Assembly (NCBI GenBank): GCA_018304635.1
Contig: JAGVVW010000001.1
Span: forward strand, 1-43,692
Length of the DNA stretch: 43,692 nt
Direction of reading: 5' to 3'
Source of the DNA: Candidatus Aenigmatarchaeota archaeon
Lineage (GTDB): Archaea; Aenigmatarchaeota; Aenigmatarchaeia; GW2011-AR5; JACRMX01
A program made the position numbers and the translations under genes. Below, in pieces: positions 6,310 through 42,398 of this stretch. How positions within the stretch are numbered: position 1 is the stretch's first letter; each line of letters opens with the position of its first letter. The notes under the pieces are model-generated. The model saw nothing but the letters and a program-made list of their open reading frames with translations, did not search any database and was not told the DNA's origin.

Positions 6310-6452
6310 AAATAAAATATTACGAAAATTGAAATGGGAAGGTGAAAATAAATATTAATAATTATCGGGCAAAAAGAAATGTTGGAAATGTACCAAAGGG
6401 AAATGAATAATATGCAACGAAGTTGCCAAAGAGGGAAGAGGTTGAACAACTT

Positions 6453-6489
6453 GACGCATCTGGTTAAATTTATCAGAATGCGTCTTTCG
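6453..6489 (+). repeat. micro-hairpin element copy A (GACGCAT...ATGCGTC-TTTCG)
   Basis: Inverted arms 6453-6459/6478-6484 then TTTCG; in rpl1-rpl10 spacer. Confidence 0.7.
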
Positions 6490-6599
6490 TTTTGAAACCG
6501 TAGGTGTCTTCATAGAATGTAACGAAAGTTGTCGTGGTGTTTTTTCTTTTGGCAACTTACATTTTCTTTGTTTCGAGAGCAAAGCTCTTGAAACTCCGA

Positions 6600-6649
6600 G
6601 ACAAGAACTCGCATGACGTTGCTTCGCAACGTCTTTTCGTCTTCTTGTC
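6600..6649 (+). repeat. nested micro-hairpin element copy B
   Basis: Inner GACGTTGC-TTC-GCAACGTC (6615-6633) then TTTTCG; outer GACAAGA/TCTTGTC (6600-6606/6643-6649). Confidence 0.75.
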
Positions 6650-6692
6650 GTAGGATTTTAAAAAAGAAAAGGCAGAAAGAAAGGGTGTAATT

Positions 6693-7588: not shown

Positions 7589-7610
7589 GACGAGCAAAGC
7601 TCGTCTTTCG
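7589..7610 (+). repeat. micro-hairpin element copy C (GACGAGC-AAA-GCTCGTC-TTTCG)
   Basis: Perfect 7-bp stem, triloop, TTTCG tail; rpl10-rpl12 spacer. Confidence 0.75.
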
Positions 7611-11528: not shown

Positions 11529-12124
11529 AACAAATACCTTCTGAATATTCCAGATACCTTAAGTTTCTTATTGAATACACGCAGAGACTCTATATCCAGA
11601 TTATTCCTGAAAACTATATAAAGATGCTTTGCATCTTCTATATCTTTTTCACTCCCAAGGTAAAGCTTGAATGCTATCTGAAGTTCCAGTGGAGAAATAT
11701 AGAGTTCGTTTTTATTGACTATTACTTTTATTTTATCGTTAAGGGATATTTCTCCAAAAATACCCTTAGGAAATGAAAGCTCCATGTTCGGTATAACACT
11801 TCCCTTATTTGAAAATCTGATAGCATAGTTATTTTTCAGATAATTGGAATAAGCATACTTTGCGTTTTGTGCGTTCAGGCAATAAAAATTCACAGAAAGA
11901 TTATTCCAGAGGCTTTCGAATTTTTTGAACCCAATATCCTCGATAAATATATCAACATCTTCTGAAGACCTGCTTCTTCCGAAAAGAATTGATATATAAC
12001 CTGCAATTAATACATATTTTATTTTTGATTTGTTCAGTACAGATGTGAAATCTATTACAAATTTGTCAAGAAGGTTAAGCTCTTTTTCAAACTCTATTAC
12101 TGACTTGCTATACTTTATCTGCAT
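11525..12124 (-). CDS. nucleotidyltransferase fold protein (AbiEii-like)
   Basis: KYVLIAGYISILFGRSRSSEDVDIFIEDIGF. Confidence 0.75.
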   Translation of the reverse strand: MQIKYSKSVIEFEKELNLLDKFVIDFTSVLNKSKIKYVLIAGYISILFGRSRSSEDVDIFIEDIGFKKFESLWNNLSVNFYCLNAQNAKYAYSNYLKNNYAIRFSNKGSVIPNMELSFPKGIFGEISLNDKIKVIVNKNELYISPLELQIAFKLYLGSEKDIEDAKHLYIVFRNNLDIESLRVFNKKLKVSGIFRRYLL

Positions 12125-12279
12125 ATGATTATAATTGTATAGCTTATTTTTTATATATACGTAATTATTATATCGTAGAAGTGTAGCCTGGATGAATAGT
12201 TTTTTAAACTTTTTACTATAGAAAGTATATATTTTTATATACTTTGTATGTATGAAGGTTTAAGATAGATAGAGACACT

Positions 12280-12846
12280 CTATTCCTCAAATTTCTGCAC
12301 CACATAAATCCATATTCTTGTTTCCTTTTCATTCAGGACAGAAACAGGCAGGTCTGCTTTGGCACATAAATGCTTCAGAAACTCCTTTTTGTCAGGTAGG
12401 TCTTTCCAGACCTGAGGAAGAAAAGTTGCACTGTGATCATGATAACTTATTATTACTCCGTGCTTTCCGGGAATTATTTTTTCAATATTCGAAGCTTCTG
12501 GTTGAGTAAGCACTGAAATTTCTACATGAATATGACCAAAATCTTTTTTTATCAATGGCGGGAATCTTGGATCATGGAATGCTGCATTGACTGCGTTTGA
12601 AATTACATCACGACACAAAGGCTGATGAGCTTTGAGACTGCCAATGCAGCCGCGCAATGAACCATTTATAGTAAGCGTCACAAAACTTGCACCATTTTCC
12701 AATAACTTTTTTGGAATTTCTGTTTCAGAAATTGAAATTTTTAATAAATCATGTATATTCATGTAGTATAATATGCTTTTCCGTGCTAATTCAACCAGAT
12801 ATTTTCCATTTTCTTCAGTTAAATTAGTAGAAACCATAACAACCAT
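12280..12846 (-). CDS. AMMECR1 domain protein (AmmeMemoRadiSam system protein A)
   Basis: GASFVTLTINGSLRGCIGSLKAHQPLCRDVISNAVNAAFHDPRFPPL. Confidence 0.95.
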   Translation of the reverse strand: MVVMVSTNLTEENGKYLVELARKSILYYMNIHDLLKISISETEIPKKLLENGASFVTLTINGSLRGCIGSLKAHQPLCRDVISNAVNAAFHDPRFPPLIKKDFGHIHVEISVLTQPEASNIEKIIPGKHGVIISYHDHSATFLPQVWKDLPDKKEFLKHLCAKADLPVSVLNEKETRIWIYVVQKFEE

Positions 12847-18825: not shown

Positions 18826-18998
18826 AGCCCCGTAGTCTAGCTGCCCTTTTTCTTTTCAAACGAAAGACGCATCTTTGATGCGTCAGGTCGTTAAAGAAAA
18901 AGTGTAAGTTGCCCAAAAAGAAATTTTGGGTGTTGGAAAACGGTCAAGGATAACTGGCTCTGGACCAGTTGACCCAGGTTCGAATCCTGGCGGGGCTA
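18826..18998 (+). tRNA. tRNA-Gln(CTG) interrupted by ~100-nt insertion in the D-loop
   Basis: Exons AGCCCCGTAGTCTAGC + GGTCAAGGATAACTGGCTCTGGACCAGTTGACCCAGGTTCGAATCCTGGCGGGGCTA give a complete 73-nt cloverleaf; anticodon loop CTCTGGA. Confidence 0.88.
18861..18884 (+). repeat. micro-hairpin element copy E (CGAAA-GACGCATC-TTT-GATGCGTC)
   Basis: Perfect 8-bp stem inside tRNA-Gln insertion. Confidence 0.75.
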
Positions 18999-19835: not shown

Positions 19836-19931
19836 TGAGCCTTCATATAAAAAGGAAATAGGGTAAACAACTTGACACATTTTGATGAAGTCAAAAACAA
19901 AATTTAAATACTTTTCTGTTGTAATTAGAAG

Positions 19932-36562: not shown

Positions 36563-37624
36563 AATATGTTGCAGCAGGCGATGTGTTGTCTGTCATAGTG
36601 CTGATTTTTTAATGATGCTATCATAGGCGTTTGGATGGATAAAGCTAGCTCCCATGCTGCCTGAGGGATGGCTTGGCTTGACAGGCGATGAAGGTCCTGG
36701 TAAGCTGGGAAAAGTCAGGGCGAGTCGCATGCAGACTTCGAACCCTGAATCGCCTAATGGGACATCCCTTATATTCACGGCAAAAAGCTGTGAAAGCGAA
36801 CGCGGAGAATTGAAAGAGAAGAAGTTGATTAAACAAATAAAAAATATATGAGGAACACAGATTGATTTTATAGTTGAGTTAAATGGATCAAATATAACCG
36901 AAAATAATTTCAGCTTCTTCTCCAAGAAACATCTTAATATCCGCAGGAAAAGAAAGCAAACGCGATGTTGTTAGTAAAGGCGATTGAACGCAACAGAGAA
37001 CAAACCGAACCTTTGCAGAAATGCAATAGGAATGTGGGGTTTGGACCTGTTTTTGACTTAACTTTCTATCTGAAGTCTCCTGGAAAGGAGTGCCATAGAC
37101 AGTGATAGCCTGGTAAGAAAAAGAAAGAAAGTTGTTATTCAGGTATCCAGAGTATGATTGGTTGAATTTCCAGTCAGAATGCGGGAGTCATCAACTTCCA
37201 ATTCTAAATTACTCGTCAAGTCCGATAGCGAAGTAGTAGGGTGACTGAAAGCTCAAAAGTATCCATAAAAGGAGTTGAAAAGAGCCTGAAATCAGGTAGC
37301 TACAGTTAGGCAGTGAAAGCCCGGCAACGGGTATAAGCTGCTGTTAGTTTTGAAAAACTAAGCAGGGAGTTTTGGATCGTGGCAAGGTGAAAGCCGTAGC
37401 GAAAGCGAATATCGTATGAAAGTGCGTAAGTCACGGTCTGAATACCCGAAACCGCAGTGATCTAGGCCTGAGTAAGGTGAAGTCGCGCGAAAGCGCGATG
37501 GAGGCCTGAACTGGTTTTGGTACAAACCACTCAGATGACTTGGGTCTAGGGGTGAAACGTGAGACGAACAAAGTTCATCTACGTTTGTTGCTCACGCACC
37601 AAAAGCCAATCGAACGCGGTGATA

Positions 37625-38080
37625 TCTTTAGGGTTAATAGCAAACATACGGCTTAGCATCCATATTCTCTTTTTCGGTCCTTTAGACACGAAAAATAGAT
37701 AAGGATGCTTCGCCTAAATAGTAAACATGAAAACAAGAATTCCAATTGAAAATTATCTGAGAATGTTCAGAAACCAAAATATTTATATGAGTGGTTGCGA
37801 GAAAATCGTTAAAAAATATGAACATAAAATTAAAAAATTATCTAAAAAGAAGATATCATTTCATCAAAATGATTTCGATTCTTTGAAATTTATTAAGAAC
37901 GTTCTTAATAATTTCGGTATAAAGACTGGTGAAATATTTCTTCAGGATAAAAGAAAGTGTTATGCTCTTTATATTCAATCTACAGATGGAATACAAAAAT
38001 TTGCTTCTTTGTTTGAACCTATTCAGAAAAAGAAGAGAATTAATGATTTATTAGATGTTTTGCTTCCTAAAGACACCAAA
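37625..38080 (+). ncRNA. 23S intron 1 (between GGTGATA and GCTGGTTCC, E. coli ~806-810) containing LAGLIDADG-like ORF
   Basis: Breaks conserved GGTGATA^GCTGGTTC; terminal pairing TCTTTAGG/CCTAAAGA. Confidence 0.75.
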
Positions 38081-38125
38081 GCTGGTTCCTCCCGAAATGA
38101 GTCTCAGCTCAGCCTGGTTCTATAG
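37727..38125 (+). CDS. LAGLIDADG-type homing endonuclease-like protein, ORF runs into the 3' rRNA exon
   Basis: FIKNVLNNFGIKTGEIFLQDKRKCYALYIQSTDGIQKFASLF; inside 23S intron. Confidence 0.6.
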   Translation: MKTRIPIENYLRMFRNQNIYMSGCEKIVKKYEHKIKKLSKKKISFHQNDFDSLKFIKNVLNNFGIKTGEIFLQDKRKCYALYIQSTDGIQKFASLFEPIQKKKRINDLLDVLLPKDTKAGSSRNESQLSLVL

Positions 38126-38373
38126 ACATCAATGGGGTAGGGCACTGATTAGACAACCAAGGGAAGAAATTCCCAGTTGCCTTGTCAAACCGCGAATCTG
38201 TTGATACTGGAACTGGAGTGAGAGCATCTGGAGTAATTTTGGTGCTCGAGAGGGAAACAACCCAGACTTATGTTAAGGTCCCTAAGTACTGACTAAGTGT
38301 ATCGAAAGTAGTCTTGAATTTTAGACACTGGGGAGGTTGACATAGAAGTCGTCATCCTTTAAACAACGTGTAA

Positions 38374-38501
38374 AAGCCCTTTTTCTTTTTATAAGAAATC
38401 TATGAAAAAAGAAAAAGCTCTTGGGGAAAAAGAAAAATATAATATATTTTCCATAAACGTTTTTTCGTAGATAAAAATTTTCGATTCTCGAAAAAGGGTT
38501 T
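38374..38501 (+). ncRNA. non-coding insertion in the 23S GTPase-associated centre (E. coli ~1085-1100)
   Basis: AAGCCCTTTTTC (38374-38385) / GAAAAAGGGTTT (38490-38501) ends; inner CTTTTTCTTTTT/AAAAAGAAAAAG. Confidence 0.65.
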
Positions 38502-39182
38502 CATGATATAACGGACCCACCAAAATTCAGGGCGCTGAAAATGGACGGGGCTAAGTCAGTTACCGATACATAAGATGTGCGATTTATAATCGTATGTGGT
38601 AGGGAGGCGTCCTGCGAGGGCAGAAGCTTGTCTGTAAAGATGAGTGGACCTCGCTGGAATGAAAATCCTGCTGGGAGTAGCAAACAAGCCGGGTGAGAAT
38701 TCCGGTCGCCAAAAGGGTAAGAGTTCCCCAGTAAAGCTTATCTACTGGGGGGTAGTCGATCCTAATTGCAACCCTAACTGGGATTGCGAGAAAGGGCATA
38801 CGGTTAATATTCCGTAACCAATGATATTTCGTTTATGTTGCATTCAACGTTTTAGGATAGGCTGACCATGATTGTCGTCGTGGCCAATCATCTAAACAGG
38901 AGGAGATGCGTCATGCAGAGAATCTTGTGAAGATGCCATGGGGCTGCTGTATGGTGGCTTCAGTTGATTCCTAGAACCATTGAAAAGAAATGCAAACAGA
39001 AATGCCATTGTTCGTATCGAAAACCGACACAGGTACCCATGCTAAGAACTGGTATTAGGTGAAAAATATGAGTTATGCAGCAATGTGTCATATTGAGATA
39101 AGAAATGTCAGTATAGTATCACTATAATACCACTTAATGGCGAAGGTGTTCGGGATAATCAACCTAAAGGAATTCGGCAAAT

Positions 39183-39437
39183 GAGCGTAGAATTCGTCCA
39201 ATAAGCACTGTAAATTTTAAAAATTTTATTCCTATAATTTATATGGTACTTAGATGTTATTATGTAAATTCATTGCAGTCTCCTGTCAGATGGTTCTGTA
39301 GATAAAAAGCGATACACCGTATCTTTTACAAAAGATAATGTTGAAAAGTTTCTACATAATTGTGTGGAATTGATAAATAATCAAAAAGAGTTTCGTGATT
39401 TTATAAAATTAAAATTGAATTCTACACTCAGTCGAGA
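39183..39437 (+). ncRNA. 23S intron at E. coli ~1680-1690 with LAGLIDADG remnant
   Basis: Terminal pairing GAGCGTAGAATT (39183-39194)/AATTCTACACTC (39418-39429); interrupts GGCAAAT^TAGTCCTGTACG. Confidence 0.65.
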
Positions 39438-39441
39438 TTAG
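39280..39441 (+). pseudogene. LAGLIDADG homing endonuclease C-terminal remnant
   Basis: Hand translation LLSDGSVDKKRYTVSFTKDNVEKFLHNCVELINNQKEFRDFIKLKLNSTLSRD*. Confidence 0.7.
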
Positions 39442-39643
39442 TCCTGTACGTTTTCCATAAGGGATGCCTGCTTAGAGATAAGCAGGTCGCAGTGACTAGG
39501 GGATTCCGACTGTTTAACAAAAACATAGCTGGCTGCTAGTCCGAAAGGATGTGTATAGCCAGTGAATCGTGGCCACTGGTGGTCGGTTAAACTCAGTTTC
39601 AACTGGGCAAAGCCCCACTATAGGCCGGCCCTAACTCTAGTAC

Positions 39644-39665
39644 GACGAGCAGAGCTCGTCTTTCG
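39644..39665 (+). repeat. micro-hairpin element copy G in 23S helix 69 region
   Basis: GACGAGC-AGA-GCTCGTC-TTTCG between GGCCCTAACTCTAG and GAAGAGGGTCTTAAGGT. Confidence 0.75.
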
Positions 39666-39684
39666 GTGAAGAGGGTCTTAAGGT

Positions 39685-40474
39685 GATGATAAAAAAGCCT
39701 GTACTTCGTACAGCACGCTACGTTGCCTTAATAAAATTTGGCTGTATGCTGGAACGTCCAGATTTTCCAAGTCCTGAGAAAGGAATAATCTTGGAAGTAT
39801 GAGGATAATCAGCAGGAAACCGCTGGGGGTGAGAAACCATGAAATCAAAGTATGTCAAACATTATCTCAGAGGTTTTACAGATGCAGAAGGATGTTTCAG
39901 TATTTCTTTGAAAAAAGATGATAAGGCGAGATTTGGTTGGGTTCTAGATCCTTTATTTCAAATAACGCAACACAAAAAAGGCGCTAAGGTTCTAGAAATT
40001 TTCAAAACAGAATTAAAATGTGGTAGAATAATAGAAAAACCAGGACAACCTGATCTTTTGCTTTTATTGATTGATAACAGAAGACAATTAATGGAACACG
40101 TAATACCGTTCTTTGAAAAAAATAAACTTTTATTAAAGAACGATGACTTTGAAAAATTTAAAGAAATTATAACTGGAATGGAAAATAAAATGCATCAAAG
40201 AAGAGGTGATTTCATAGAACTTATTAAAAAATGTTATGAAATGAATATGGAAGGAAAACAGAGAAGATATAAACTTGAGGATATTCTAAAAGACGTAAAT
40301 AAAAAAGCGGGCTCCTCAGAGACTAAAAGCCAAACACAAAGCGAAAATGCTTTGTGAAGATATAGTCCGAACCTCATGGTAACATGAGGAGTTATGCAGA
40401 AATGTATAACCGCTTCTAAAGAAAACCTGAATATTTTGATTTGTTCTTTAGATGTCAGAAAAGTAACAGAATTG
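39685..40474 (+). mobile_element. group I intron in 23S rRNA (site CTTAAGGT^AGCG, E. coli ~1931) encoding a LAGLIDADG homing endonuclease
   Basis: 5' exon ends U, intron ends G; IGS GCCTTAA (39725-39731) pairs with exon TTAAGGT with U.G at splice site; P7 GACTA/TAGTC; P8 ACAAAGC/GCTTTGT; P9 CCTCATG-GTAA-CATGAGG. Confidence 0.92.
39839..40357 (+). CDS. LAGLIDADG homing endonuclease
   Basis: YLRGFTDAEGCFSISLKKDDKARFGWVLDPLFQITQHKKGAKVLEIFKTELKCGRIIEKPGQPDLLLLLIDNRRQLMEHVIPFFE. Confidence 0.95.
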   Translation: MKSKYVKHYLRGFTDAEGCFSISLKKDDKARFGWVLDPLFQITQHKKGAKVLEIFKTELKCGRIIEKPGQPDLLLLLIDNRRQLMEHVIPFFEKNKLLLKNDDFEKFKEIITGMENKMHQRRGDFIELIKKCYEMNMEGKQRRYKLEDILKDVNKKAGSSETKSQTQSENAL

Positions 40475-40712
40475 AGCGTAATCCCTTGCCAACTAATTAT
40501 TGGCCTGCATGATAGATCAACGAGAGTCCCACTGTCTCTAGGTTGAACCCGGCGAAACCATCTTTCTGGTGATTAGGCCAGAGACTTCCGATGGGAAGAG
40601 TAGACCCCGTGGAGCTTTACTGCAGTTTATTGTTGTAGTATGGTCGTTGTTGTATAGCGTAGGTAGGAGACGTCGAAGCGAAGGCGAAAGCTGACGTGGA
40701 GTCACTAAAGAC

Positions 40713-40765
40713 CTGACACATCGAAAACACTGACGAGCTTCGCTCGTCTTTCGAGTGTGTGTCAG
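40713..40765 (+). repeat. nested micro-hairpin element copy H within 23S
   Basis: Outer CTGACACA/TGTGTCAG, middle TCGAAA/TTTCGA, inner GACGAGC-TTC-GCTCGTC. Confidence 0.8.
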
Positions 40766-41051
40766 TCGGTGAGTGTAACACTACCCTTCAATTTCCATAT
40801 TGCTAACGTGAAGAAATTTGCGGACATCAGTAAATGGGCAGTTTGACTGGGGCGGTACGGCTTTGAAACGGTATCAAAGCCGCTCTAAGGTCTCCTCAGT
40901 CCGGTCAGAAATCGGGCGGCGAGTGTAAGCGCAAAAGGAGGCTTGATTGGATTCTGAACAACGAGGAATCCAAGGGCGAAAGCCTGAGCTAGCGATACGC
41001 ACATTGGCCTTGATGGCTGTGTGTGACGTCAGAAAAGCTACCCCGGGGATA

Positions 41052-41496
41052 GATTTATAAATGTCTACTTGAAAACAGAAGCACGAAAGAAAAAGGATTT
41101 GTCTTTGGAGCAAGTCACGACGGTATAGTTTATTACAGAGAAAACAAGAACTAATATGGATTGGAAATTGATCAAAAATCCAGAGAATGGCTATAAGAAA
41201 TCTAGAATTAGTTCTTGCACAAAACATAGATTTCCAGATAGGATTTCTTCAAGGAATTTTCGATGCAAAAGGAAGTGTTCGTTTAAATCGCAAACACATA
41301 ACAACAAATTCTAATAACATGAAAACAATTTCCGTCGTTACGCGATTGCTCAATGATATATGAATTAACATTGGTAAACCCTTTAATAATTTATCTGAAT
41401 TTAGGAAATTTGTCGATTTTATACATCCTGAAAAGAAACGAAGACTTCGAATGCTTTTGTAATGAAATCGTTTGTAAATCCCTCAAAATGGTGTCG
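41052..41496 (+). ncRNA. 23S intron at GGGGATA^ (E. coli ~2449) with decayed LAGLIDADG ORF; 3' boundary approximate
   Basis: CCCCGGGGATA interrupted; exon resumes near GGTGTCGTAGCGGGTTAGAGTTCATA. Confidence 0.7.
41187..41462 (+). pseudogene. LAGLIDADG homing endonuclease with one in-frame TGA
   Basis: MAIRNLELVLAQNIDFQIGFLQGIFDAKGSVRLNRKHITTNSNNMKTISVVTRLLNDI*INIGKPFNNLSEFRKFVDFIHPEKKRRLRMLL*. Confidence 0.8.
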
Positions 41497-41616
41497 TAGC
41501 GGGTTAGAGTTCATAATCCGCGCTCTTCCATAAAAGAAGAATAGACGCGGTTGAACCTATCGACCCCGCGTGTTGCGGCGTCGCTGTCGGCTCCCCCTCT
41601 CCTGGCTGTGCAGAAA

Positions 41617-41704
41617 AGCCTTTTTATGCCCTTTCTTTTTCAAAAAAAGAAAGTGCATCCGGAAAGAAAAATTCTTTTTGGAAAAATCTTTGTATAAAAA
41701 GGTT
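41617..41704 (+). ncRNA. A/T-rich hairpin insertion at the tip of 23S helix 91-like stem
   Basis: GGCTGTGCAG...CTGCAAGCAGCC stem expanded by CCTTTTTAT/ATAAAAAGG and GCCCTTTCTTTTT/AAAAAGAAAG. Confidence 0.65.
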
Positions 41705-42398
41705 CTGCAAGCAGCCAAGGGTGCCGGAGTTCACGGATTAAAAGGGGACGTTAGCTGGGTTCAGAACGGCGTGAGCCAGTTTGGTCTATATCTGTCGGAA
41801 GTGCTAATGCCTGAGAGGAAGGGACAATAAGTACGAAAGGAACATTTTCCCGGGGCCTCTGGTTTATCAGCTGTCTGATAAGGCAAGTTGAGTAGCTACG
41901 CCCTAATGGATAACACCTGAAAGCATCTAAGGTGTAAGCCATTCTCAAAACAAGGCATTCGGCTGGAGCAAGACGACTCCTCTATGGAGCAGGGGTGTAA
42001 GCATCAAGCTTCGGCGAGATGTTCAGCCCACTGTTTCCTATGCTAATGCTAGCTTCCAAATTCCAAACGCTTATGAGAAAAATATTGCAAAAGACAAAAT
42101 CTGTGAAATCAAATATCCATGATGAAACATGGGGAGATATGTTTTCGAGATCCCTTATGGAAATTGGAAATTTGTATAACTTCCAAAATATTGCGAACTT
42201 GATGGATTAACTATAGAAAGATGTAAAACATTGTGCAATGGCCGGGATGGGTTGTATAATTCTTATTGTCGTGTTGTTCAAAAAGATAATTGGTATCCTG
42301 TTGAAGTCATGATAGAACAGGGATTCCTAAAATCCCTTGAAAGTTTAGATCAGCTTAGGCTGTAGTGTTGCTATAGAAATTTACTTGCATTGTGTGTA

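Follow-up and report, generated by a model that had tools for sequence, protein, structure and literature searches.

One covarying structural core in predicted bulge-helix-bulge introns and related spacer copies of an Aenigmatarchaeota genome

Results

The predicted bulge-helix-bulge (BHB) introns in RNA genes of Candidatus Aenigmatarchaeota archaeon and a set of related copies in protein-gene spacers are built on one covarying core, of which we found no description in the literature. Nearly all of its tRNA genes contain small folded elements, which resemble introns that are spliced out. We think it likely that the rpl1-rpl10 spacer and the tRNA-Gln insertion of the window are two copies of one structured, non-coding element, dispersed in the genome of an Aenigmatarchaeota-like archaeon, which would be BHB-spliced in RNA genes and copied at the DNA level. 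The assembly (1.08 Mb, 52 contigs) is 88% complete, and the window refers to the whole stretch of 43,692 nucleotides analyzed here. Judged by ribosomal protein L10, its closest relatives with a name are MAGs of Aenigmatarchaeota (42-46% identity).

Two sequence blocks shared by the rpl1-rpl10 spacer and tRNA-Gln

The initial annotation claimed two blocks common to the minus strand of the rpl1-rpl10 spacer and the tRNA-Gln insertion, and both were found where it placed them. Block 1 (TTTCaAAACGAAAGACGCAT...) is at 6443-6498 minus in the spacer and at 18853-18892 plus in tRNA-Gln, and block 2 (AAAGAAAA(AG)TGTAAGTTGCC(CA)AAAAGAAA) is at 6541-6569 minus and 18893-18923 plus, respectively. In local pairwise alignment, block 1 scored 35 and block 2 scored 40, above the shuffle maxima of 28 and 33; 0 of 1000 dinucleotide shuffles reached the observed score for either block. 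Because no shuffle did so, the alignment is better than that of shuffled sequences, the level that had been named as speaking against the similarity. The pair said to close the spacer unit, GTTGCCAAAGA/TCTTTTGGCAAC, is present with one additional T. The partial copy placed near 19,860-19,880 spans 19849-19889 (76% over 41 nt and 81% over 32 nt in two genome searches) and resembles a truncated version of a fuller repeat at C35:61218-61331 (locus L008).

The two blocks do not occur in the same order. On the minus strand of the spacer, block 2 (6569 to 6541) is followed by block 1 (6498 to 6443), whereas in tRNA-Gln block 1 (18853-18892) is followed by block 2 (18893-18923). This reversed order rules out a single collinear transposable unit, so the spacer and the tRNA gene share two modules instead, and in a genome-wide search each block is a dispersed repeat independently. 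Common descent, which had been preferred over convergent hairpins, is supported by a 98% identical copy of the tRNA insertion on contig C25 and a 95% identical copy of the spacer on C45. Thus, the homology and dispersal implied by the proposed "transposable unit" hold, but the one shared unit does not, the blocks being separate modules in opposite order. The dispersal of the spacer and tRNA elements suggests transposition. Searches of the own genome returned both the spacer and the tRNA insertion as genome-wide repeats, and 0 of 58 related genomes gave a DNA match (E 0.001). Judged from these alignments, the similarity between the spacer and tRNA-Gln is real and homologous.

The structural core

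The core has the form 5'-XYZa-C-Y1 ... R1-C-a'Z'Y'X'-(2-3 nt)-R2. Y1 and R1 form a hairpin, which is extended beyond a C.C mismatch by 3-4 more pairs between XYZa and the start of the second loop, and R2 follows. R1, the reverse complement of the pyrimidine-rich Y1 (CTTTCTTTTT and variants), is mirrored by the purine tract R2; block 2 is the 3' half of this core. Triples of Y1, R1, and mirror R2 occurred 30 times in 360 kb and never in ten shuffles. Direct repeats of R1 were also present 17 times in the 360 kb, because the arms are simple in sequence. In members defined without R2, the R1/R2 mirror held at 176 of 182 positions, while permutations gave 134.5 on average and 154 at most. XYZ was complementary to loop positions 3-5 at 52 of 54 positions in loci unselected for pairing, against a permutation mean of 21 and a maximum of 34.

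In an alignment of 32 cores, whose phylum rows have Y1/R1 fixed by the search pattern and whose own-genome rows were admitted only with two or more XYZ pairs, 95.7% of the cells were paired (77.9% when shuffled) and 71 cells were double-changed (19.5 in shuffles). The covariation score of this alignment was 0.531, compared with at most 0.106 when the partner was slid by 1-3 columns. The unselected XYZ figure is the cleanest of these measurements since the alignment rows were partly preselected for pairing. The core pairing and the R1/R2 mirror both covary across copies.

The first loop, between Y1 and R1, ranges from 0 to about 100 nt, and its payload is accordingly anything from nothing up to that length, the block 1 hairpin being among the payloads. 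Block 1 is a hairpin payload met in many contexts, and block 2 is part of a phylum-wide core. The second loop is 8 nt in one class and 10-13 nt in the class of the spacer and tRNA-Gln. A downstream complementary strand accounts for R2 only weakly in the 8-nt class, with a mean longest match of 5.4 against 4.5 in shuffled sequence, while R2 of the long-loop copies does pair with a later CTTTTGG.

The spacer element and its context

The features of the spacer element in the window are as follows.

6675-6688, minus: truncated start of an outer element (ACACCCTTTCTTTC), adjoining the rpl10 start codon; the arrangement is repeated at C40 and C45
6660-6675, minus: 5' end of the spacer element, CTGCC-TTTTCTTTTTT, read from the sequence as XYZa-C and Y1; the C25, C41, and C45 copies start alike
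6570-6659, minus: payload between Y1 and R1, with two hairpins (GACGTTGC..GCAACGTC and GTTTC..GAAAC); a 95% identical copy is at C45:7384-7531
6541-6569, minus: R1-loop-R2, AAAGAAAA-TGTAAGTTGCC-AAAAGAAAAAA (block 2), of the long-loop subtype found in this genome only
6443-6498, minus: hairpin module AAACGAAAGACGCAT..ATGCGTCAAGTTGTT (block 1), 3' of R2, with many copies genome-wide
6405-6427, minus: 3' hairpin module GGCAACTTCGTTGCATATTATTC, also in other spacer copies

The region 6405-6680 has a fold z of -5.7, and the CTGCC element appears to be nested inside the outer element ACACCCTTTCTTTC. With the spacer as query, dozens of matches were obtained genome-wide, the top one being 95% over 149 nt on C45. 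The rpl1-rpl10 gap is 383 nt here but about 0-120 nt in named relatives (including L084-L089), and the near abutment of the two genes in relatives is what an insertion predicts. CTGCC copies are preceded by YTAR in 4 cases, and a clean target-site duplication was not seen.

Spacer copies occur in both orientations. Those in sense lie directly after stop codons (C25, C45:14839, and C41), and those antisense to both neighbors lie directly before start codons, the antisense orientation being found in most same-strand gene pairs here. An identical 40-nt hairpin module (AAACGAAAGACGCACTTTTATAGATTTCATAGGTGCGTCA) also directly precedes, in antisense, the start codon of each of three genes (L027, L028, and L029). 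Since many of the copies that abut stop codons or precede start codons are beside ribosomal-protein genes, the spacer copies might be read as cis-regulatory terminators or leaders of ribosomal-protein operons whose intron similarity is incidental. We regard this as very improbable, given the high identity of spacer copies to tRNA introns and the mixed orientation (antisense in most same-strand pairs here, sense after stop codons elsewhere), from which no consistent RNA would be made.

Copies in tRNA and rRNA genes

The copies in the RNA genes of the window, with one relic, are as follows; the ends of the 23S introns are approximate.

18826-18841, plus: 5' exon of tRNA-Gln(CTG), which ARAGORN calls as tRNA-Gln only once 18842-18939 is excised
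18842-18939, plus: 98-nt D-loop BHB intron of tRNA-Gln (central helix UCUA/UGGA, 4/4; fold z = -5.5); excision restores the tRNA
18940-18998, plus: 3' exon of tRNA-Gln (Rfam search, and ARAGORN after excision)
19849-19889, plus: a relic of block 1, its hairpin module being truncated; it matches the fuller copy L008 described above
38373-38506, plus: 23S rRNA BHB intron whose core, AAAAAGAAAAAG-CTCTTGGG-GAAAAAGAAAAA, has an 8-nt loop
41614-41711, plus: 23S rRNA BHB intron, nested like a twintron, with AAAAAGAAAG-TGCATCCG-GAAAGAAAAA as its inner core

The tRNA-Gln intron consists of Y1 (CTTTTTCTTT), the block 1 hairpin, R1-TGTAAGTTGCC-R2, and a CCCAAAA/TTTTGGG hairpin, in this order, and its 98% identity to the C25 copy, which is located after a stop codon, extends over 83 nt. 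The intron at 38373-38506 has the central helix CGUG/CAUG (4/4) and the inner helix AGCCCUUUUUC/GAAAAAGGGUU. Nesting of one core within the Y1/R1 loop of another was found in tRNA-Gln(TTG) (L142 19600-19850) and in 23S rRNA at 41614-41711. The tRNA insertions are in the D-loop, anticodon loop, or T-loop, frequently two per gene and some of them nested. Only eight tRNAs are above the Rfam cut-off here, a number as low as in the sister genus and lower than in most relatives. At the loci examined, every copy within a tRNA or rRNA gene has the sense orientation, as judged by eye.

The rRNA genes are long, spanning 2333 nt for 16S and 5418 nt for 23S (window 36640-42057). The 16S gene (L083 1501-3833) contains about 850 nt of insertions, one with a AAAAGAGAAAG-CCCTTGGG-GAAAGAGAAAA core. 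The 23S gene also has larger, ORF-bearing insertions at 37727-38125 and 39839-40357, which look like group I introns in their sequence; the ORF of the latter reads like a LAGLIDADG endonuclease. For the element itself, a group I intron was rejected, since the element is shorter than 200 nt and no Rfam group I match was found in the window at gathering cut-offs. A separate hairpin repeat, GACGAGC(A)AAGCTCGTC-TTTCG, is found at 7589, 36421, 39644, and 40732, within and outside rRNA, and also in the sister genus (L156 and L161).

Junctions and predicted splicing

A BHB junction was taken as a central helix of about 4 bp, formed by the 5' exon with the 3' intron end and flanked by 3-nt bulges. In the T-loop introns (n=12), the central helix had 41 of 48 pairs, against a null mean of 24 and no more than 37 in any of 20,000 draws, and 11 of the 12 had at least three. 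All four pairs were formed in 8 of 9 other junctions, including tRNA-Gln and both 23S introns. The inverse geometry, in which the intron 5' end pairs with the 3' exon, failed by eye, and pairing of the 5' exon with the intron 3' end fits. ARAGORN recognized 0 of 11 interrupted tRNAs before excision and 9 of 11 after the predicted introns were removed, among them tRNA-Gln(CTG) from 18826-18841 and 18940-18998. This excision result is strong but not fully independent, because the exon borders were picked with the BHB and cloverleaf rules in mind. One of the nine recovered tRNAs has no clear isotype, and this and the two failures are probably due to additional introns. Two tRNA genes (L072, and L138 minus 11800-12700) seem to hold one more intron each, a possible cause of failure after excision. 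The insertions have the central helix of BHB introns, their predicted removal restores nine of the 11 tRNAs, and the RNA-gene copies may be spliced in the cell by the splicing endonuclease and ligase.

Distribution in the phylum

One exact version of the core is present in 23 of 156 phylum genomes from 15 genera, compared with 0 of 156 for a reversed-pattern control. Among the 20 core loci listed, most are within tRNA genes and several begin directly at a stop codon. The sister genus has the same core design in other letters. The subtypes with 11-13 nt loops, including the spacer and tRNA-Gln copies, were found in this genome only, 8 and 9 times, and this confinement suggests recent spread. 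On this sequence distribution, the phylum-wide core is old and the local expansion is young.

Two other explanations bear on these patterns, and we rate both as unlikely. One sees the core as an RNA domain with a function in ordinary, vertically inherited tRNA introns, for example in folding, stability, or processing, and the spacer copies as secondary escapes. The phylum-wide, in-sense presence in tRNA introns and the strong pairing covariation fit such a domain, but the copies of 98% and 95% identity in spacers and unrelated genes, the antisense copies in operons, and the one-genome subtype point to spread rather than inheritance alone. In the other, a plain MITE-like or palindromic DNA repeat inserted into tRNA genes by chance, the BHB evolved later, and the core is merely a hairpin with no role in splicing or movement. 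Both orientations of the spacer copies, the modular hairpins in many combinations, and the nested insertions are as expected from such a repeat. However, introns of many genera have the core directly at their 5' splice site and the core's 5' end paired with the loop, a register that a random MITE would not hold throughout the phylum.

Discussion

In the explanation that we favor, a dispersed element spliced in RNA genes and copied as DNA, the RNA-gene copies would lie in sense and their insertion ends would form a bulge-helix-bulge, from which the archaeal splicing endonuclease and ligase would remove them. Insertion into RNA genes would be little harmful because BHB splicing would remove the element. 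Spacer copies would require no splicing and would be tolerated in both orientations, after stop codons or antisense before start codons. Copies would build up as the element and the smaller hairpin modules are copied at the DNA level into each other and into new sites. That the copies are dispersed, nest in each other, and multiply in lineage-specific bursts speaks for copying at the DNA level, and the element is presumably mobile as DNA.

We looked for an enzyme or a source that could account for such mobility. No PF00078 match for a reverse transcriptase was found in the 88%-complete genome assembly, which speaks against a retro-element or group II intron. The sole Y1_Tnp match in that assembly covers profile positions 77-120, the C-terminal part; it is an IS200-type Y1 transposase at L176 1492-1716, truncated to that part. 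No intact transposase for a MITE or IS200-IS605 derivative was found with the Y1_Tnp profile in the same assembly. A viral source was rejected because two core patterns were unmatched in viral contigs.

The R1/R2 mirror suggests that in single-stranded DNA R2 may act as the third strand of a triplex. Class II intrastrand triplex motifs of bacteria are reported to form as single-stranded DNA, to have a link to genomic instability, and not to form purine-motif triplexes as RNA (PMC4666352), which makes a single-stranded DNA role of the core plausible. As purine-motif triplexes are not expected in RNA (PMC4666352), the mirror may also reflect something else. A new class of mobile archaeal intron, with a single-stranded DNA triplex-like core and a 5' end read by its own loop, and spliced at a BHB, is a tentative and rather doubtful reading. 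If true, this mobile triplex-core intron class would provide the mechanism that is still missing for the spread of tRNA introns in archaea.

The gain of archaeal BHB introns is an open question, and near-identical copies occur here in tRNA and rRNA introns, nested in each other, and outside genes. A core that recurs in the phylum may help explain how archaeal introns spread. One covarying core across the phylum would be a definable element with testable ends, targets, and partner enzyme. Standard tools would count too few tRNA genes in these genomes and estimate their completeness too low.

In the organelle genomes of fungi and algae, mobile hairpin elements are short palindromic modules, which lie in spacers and RNA genes and nest in each other. 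The elements here are alike in these respects but differ in their predicted BHB splicing out of RNA genes and in their specific three-strand core. Archaeal group I introns are found in LSU and SSU rRNA of DPANN archaea and co-occur with BHB introns (PMC6125680), as the rRNA insertions do here. The elements described here are far smaller (about 40-200 nt) and have BHB junctions, and the group-I-like LSU insertions of the window are distinct from them.

The class II intrastrand triplex motifs, PIT elements and BoxC (PMC4666352), share with our core the order of a pyrimidine arm, a purine arm, and a mirror purine arm, the C-G-G and T-A-A triads, and many copies in non-coding DNA. The second loop, of 8 nt in one class but 10-13 nt in that of the window's two copies, and the first loop, of 0 to about 100 nt, do not fit the loop lengths of those motifs (1-6 nt for ITxF; 0-10 nt for Hoyne). 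Our elements also differ in being A/T-rich, in lying in BHB introns, and in a further, conserved pairing between the 5' end and the second loop through the C.C mismatch; tRNA is not mentioned in the text of PMC4666352.

A close comparison is with archaeal tRNA introns, for which a review describes the transposition mechanism as unknown (PMC4090602) and an earlier model invokes integration of mobile elements (PMC3293823). Like the copies here, those introns are in non-canonical positions, occur several per gene, can be near-identical in different tRNAs, and have BHB junctions (PMC4090602). In contrast to them, the elements described here have a covarying structural core, are also in 16S and 23S rRNA, nest in each other, and have near-identical copies in protein-gene spacers.
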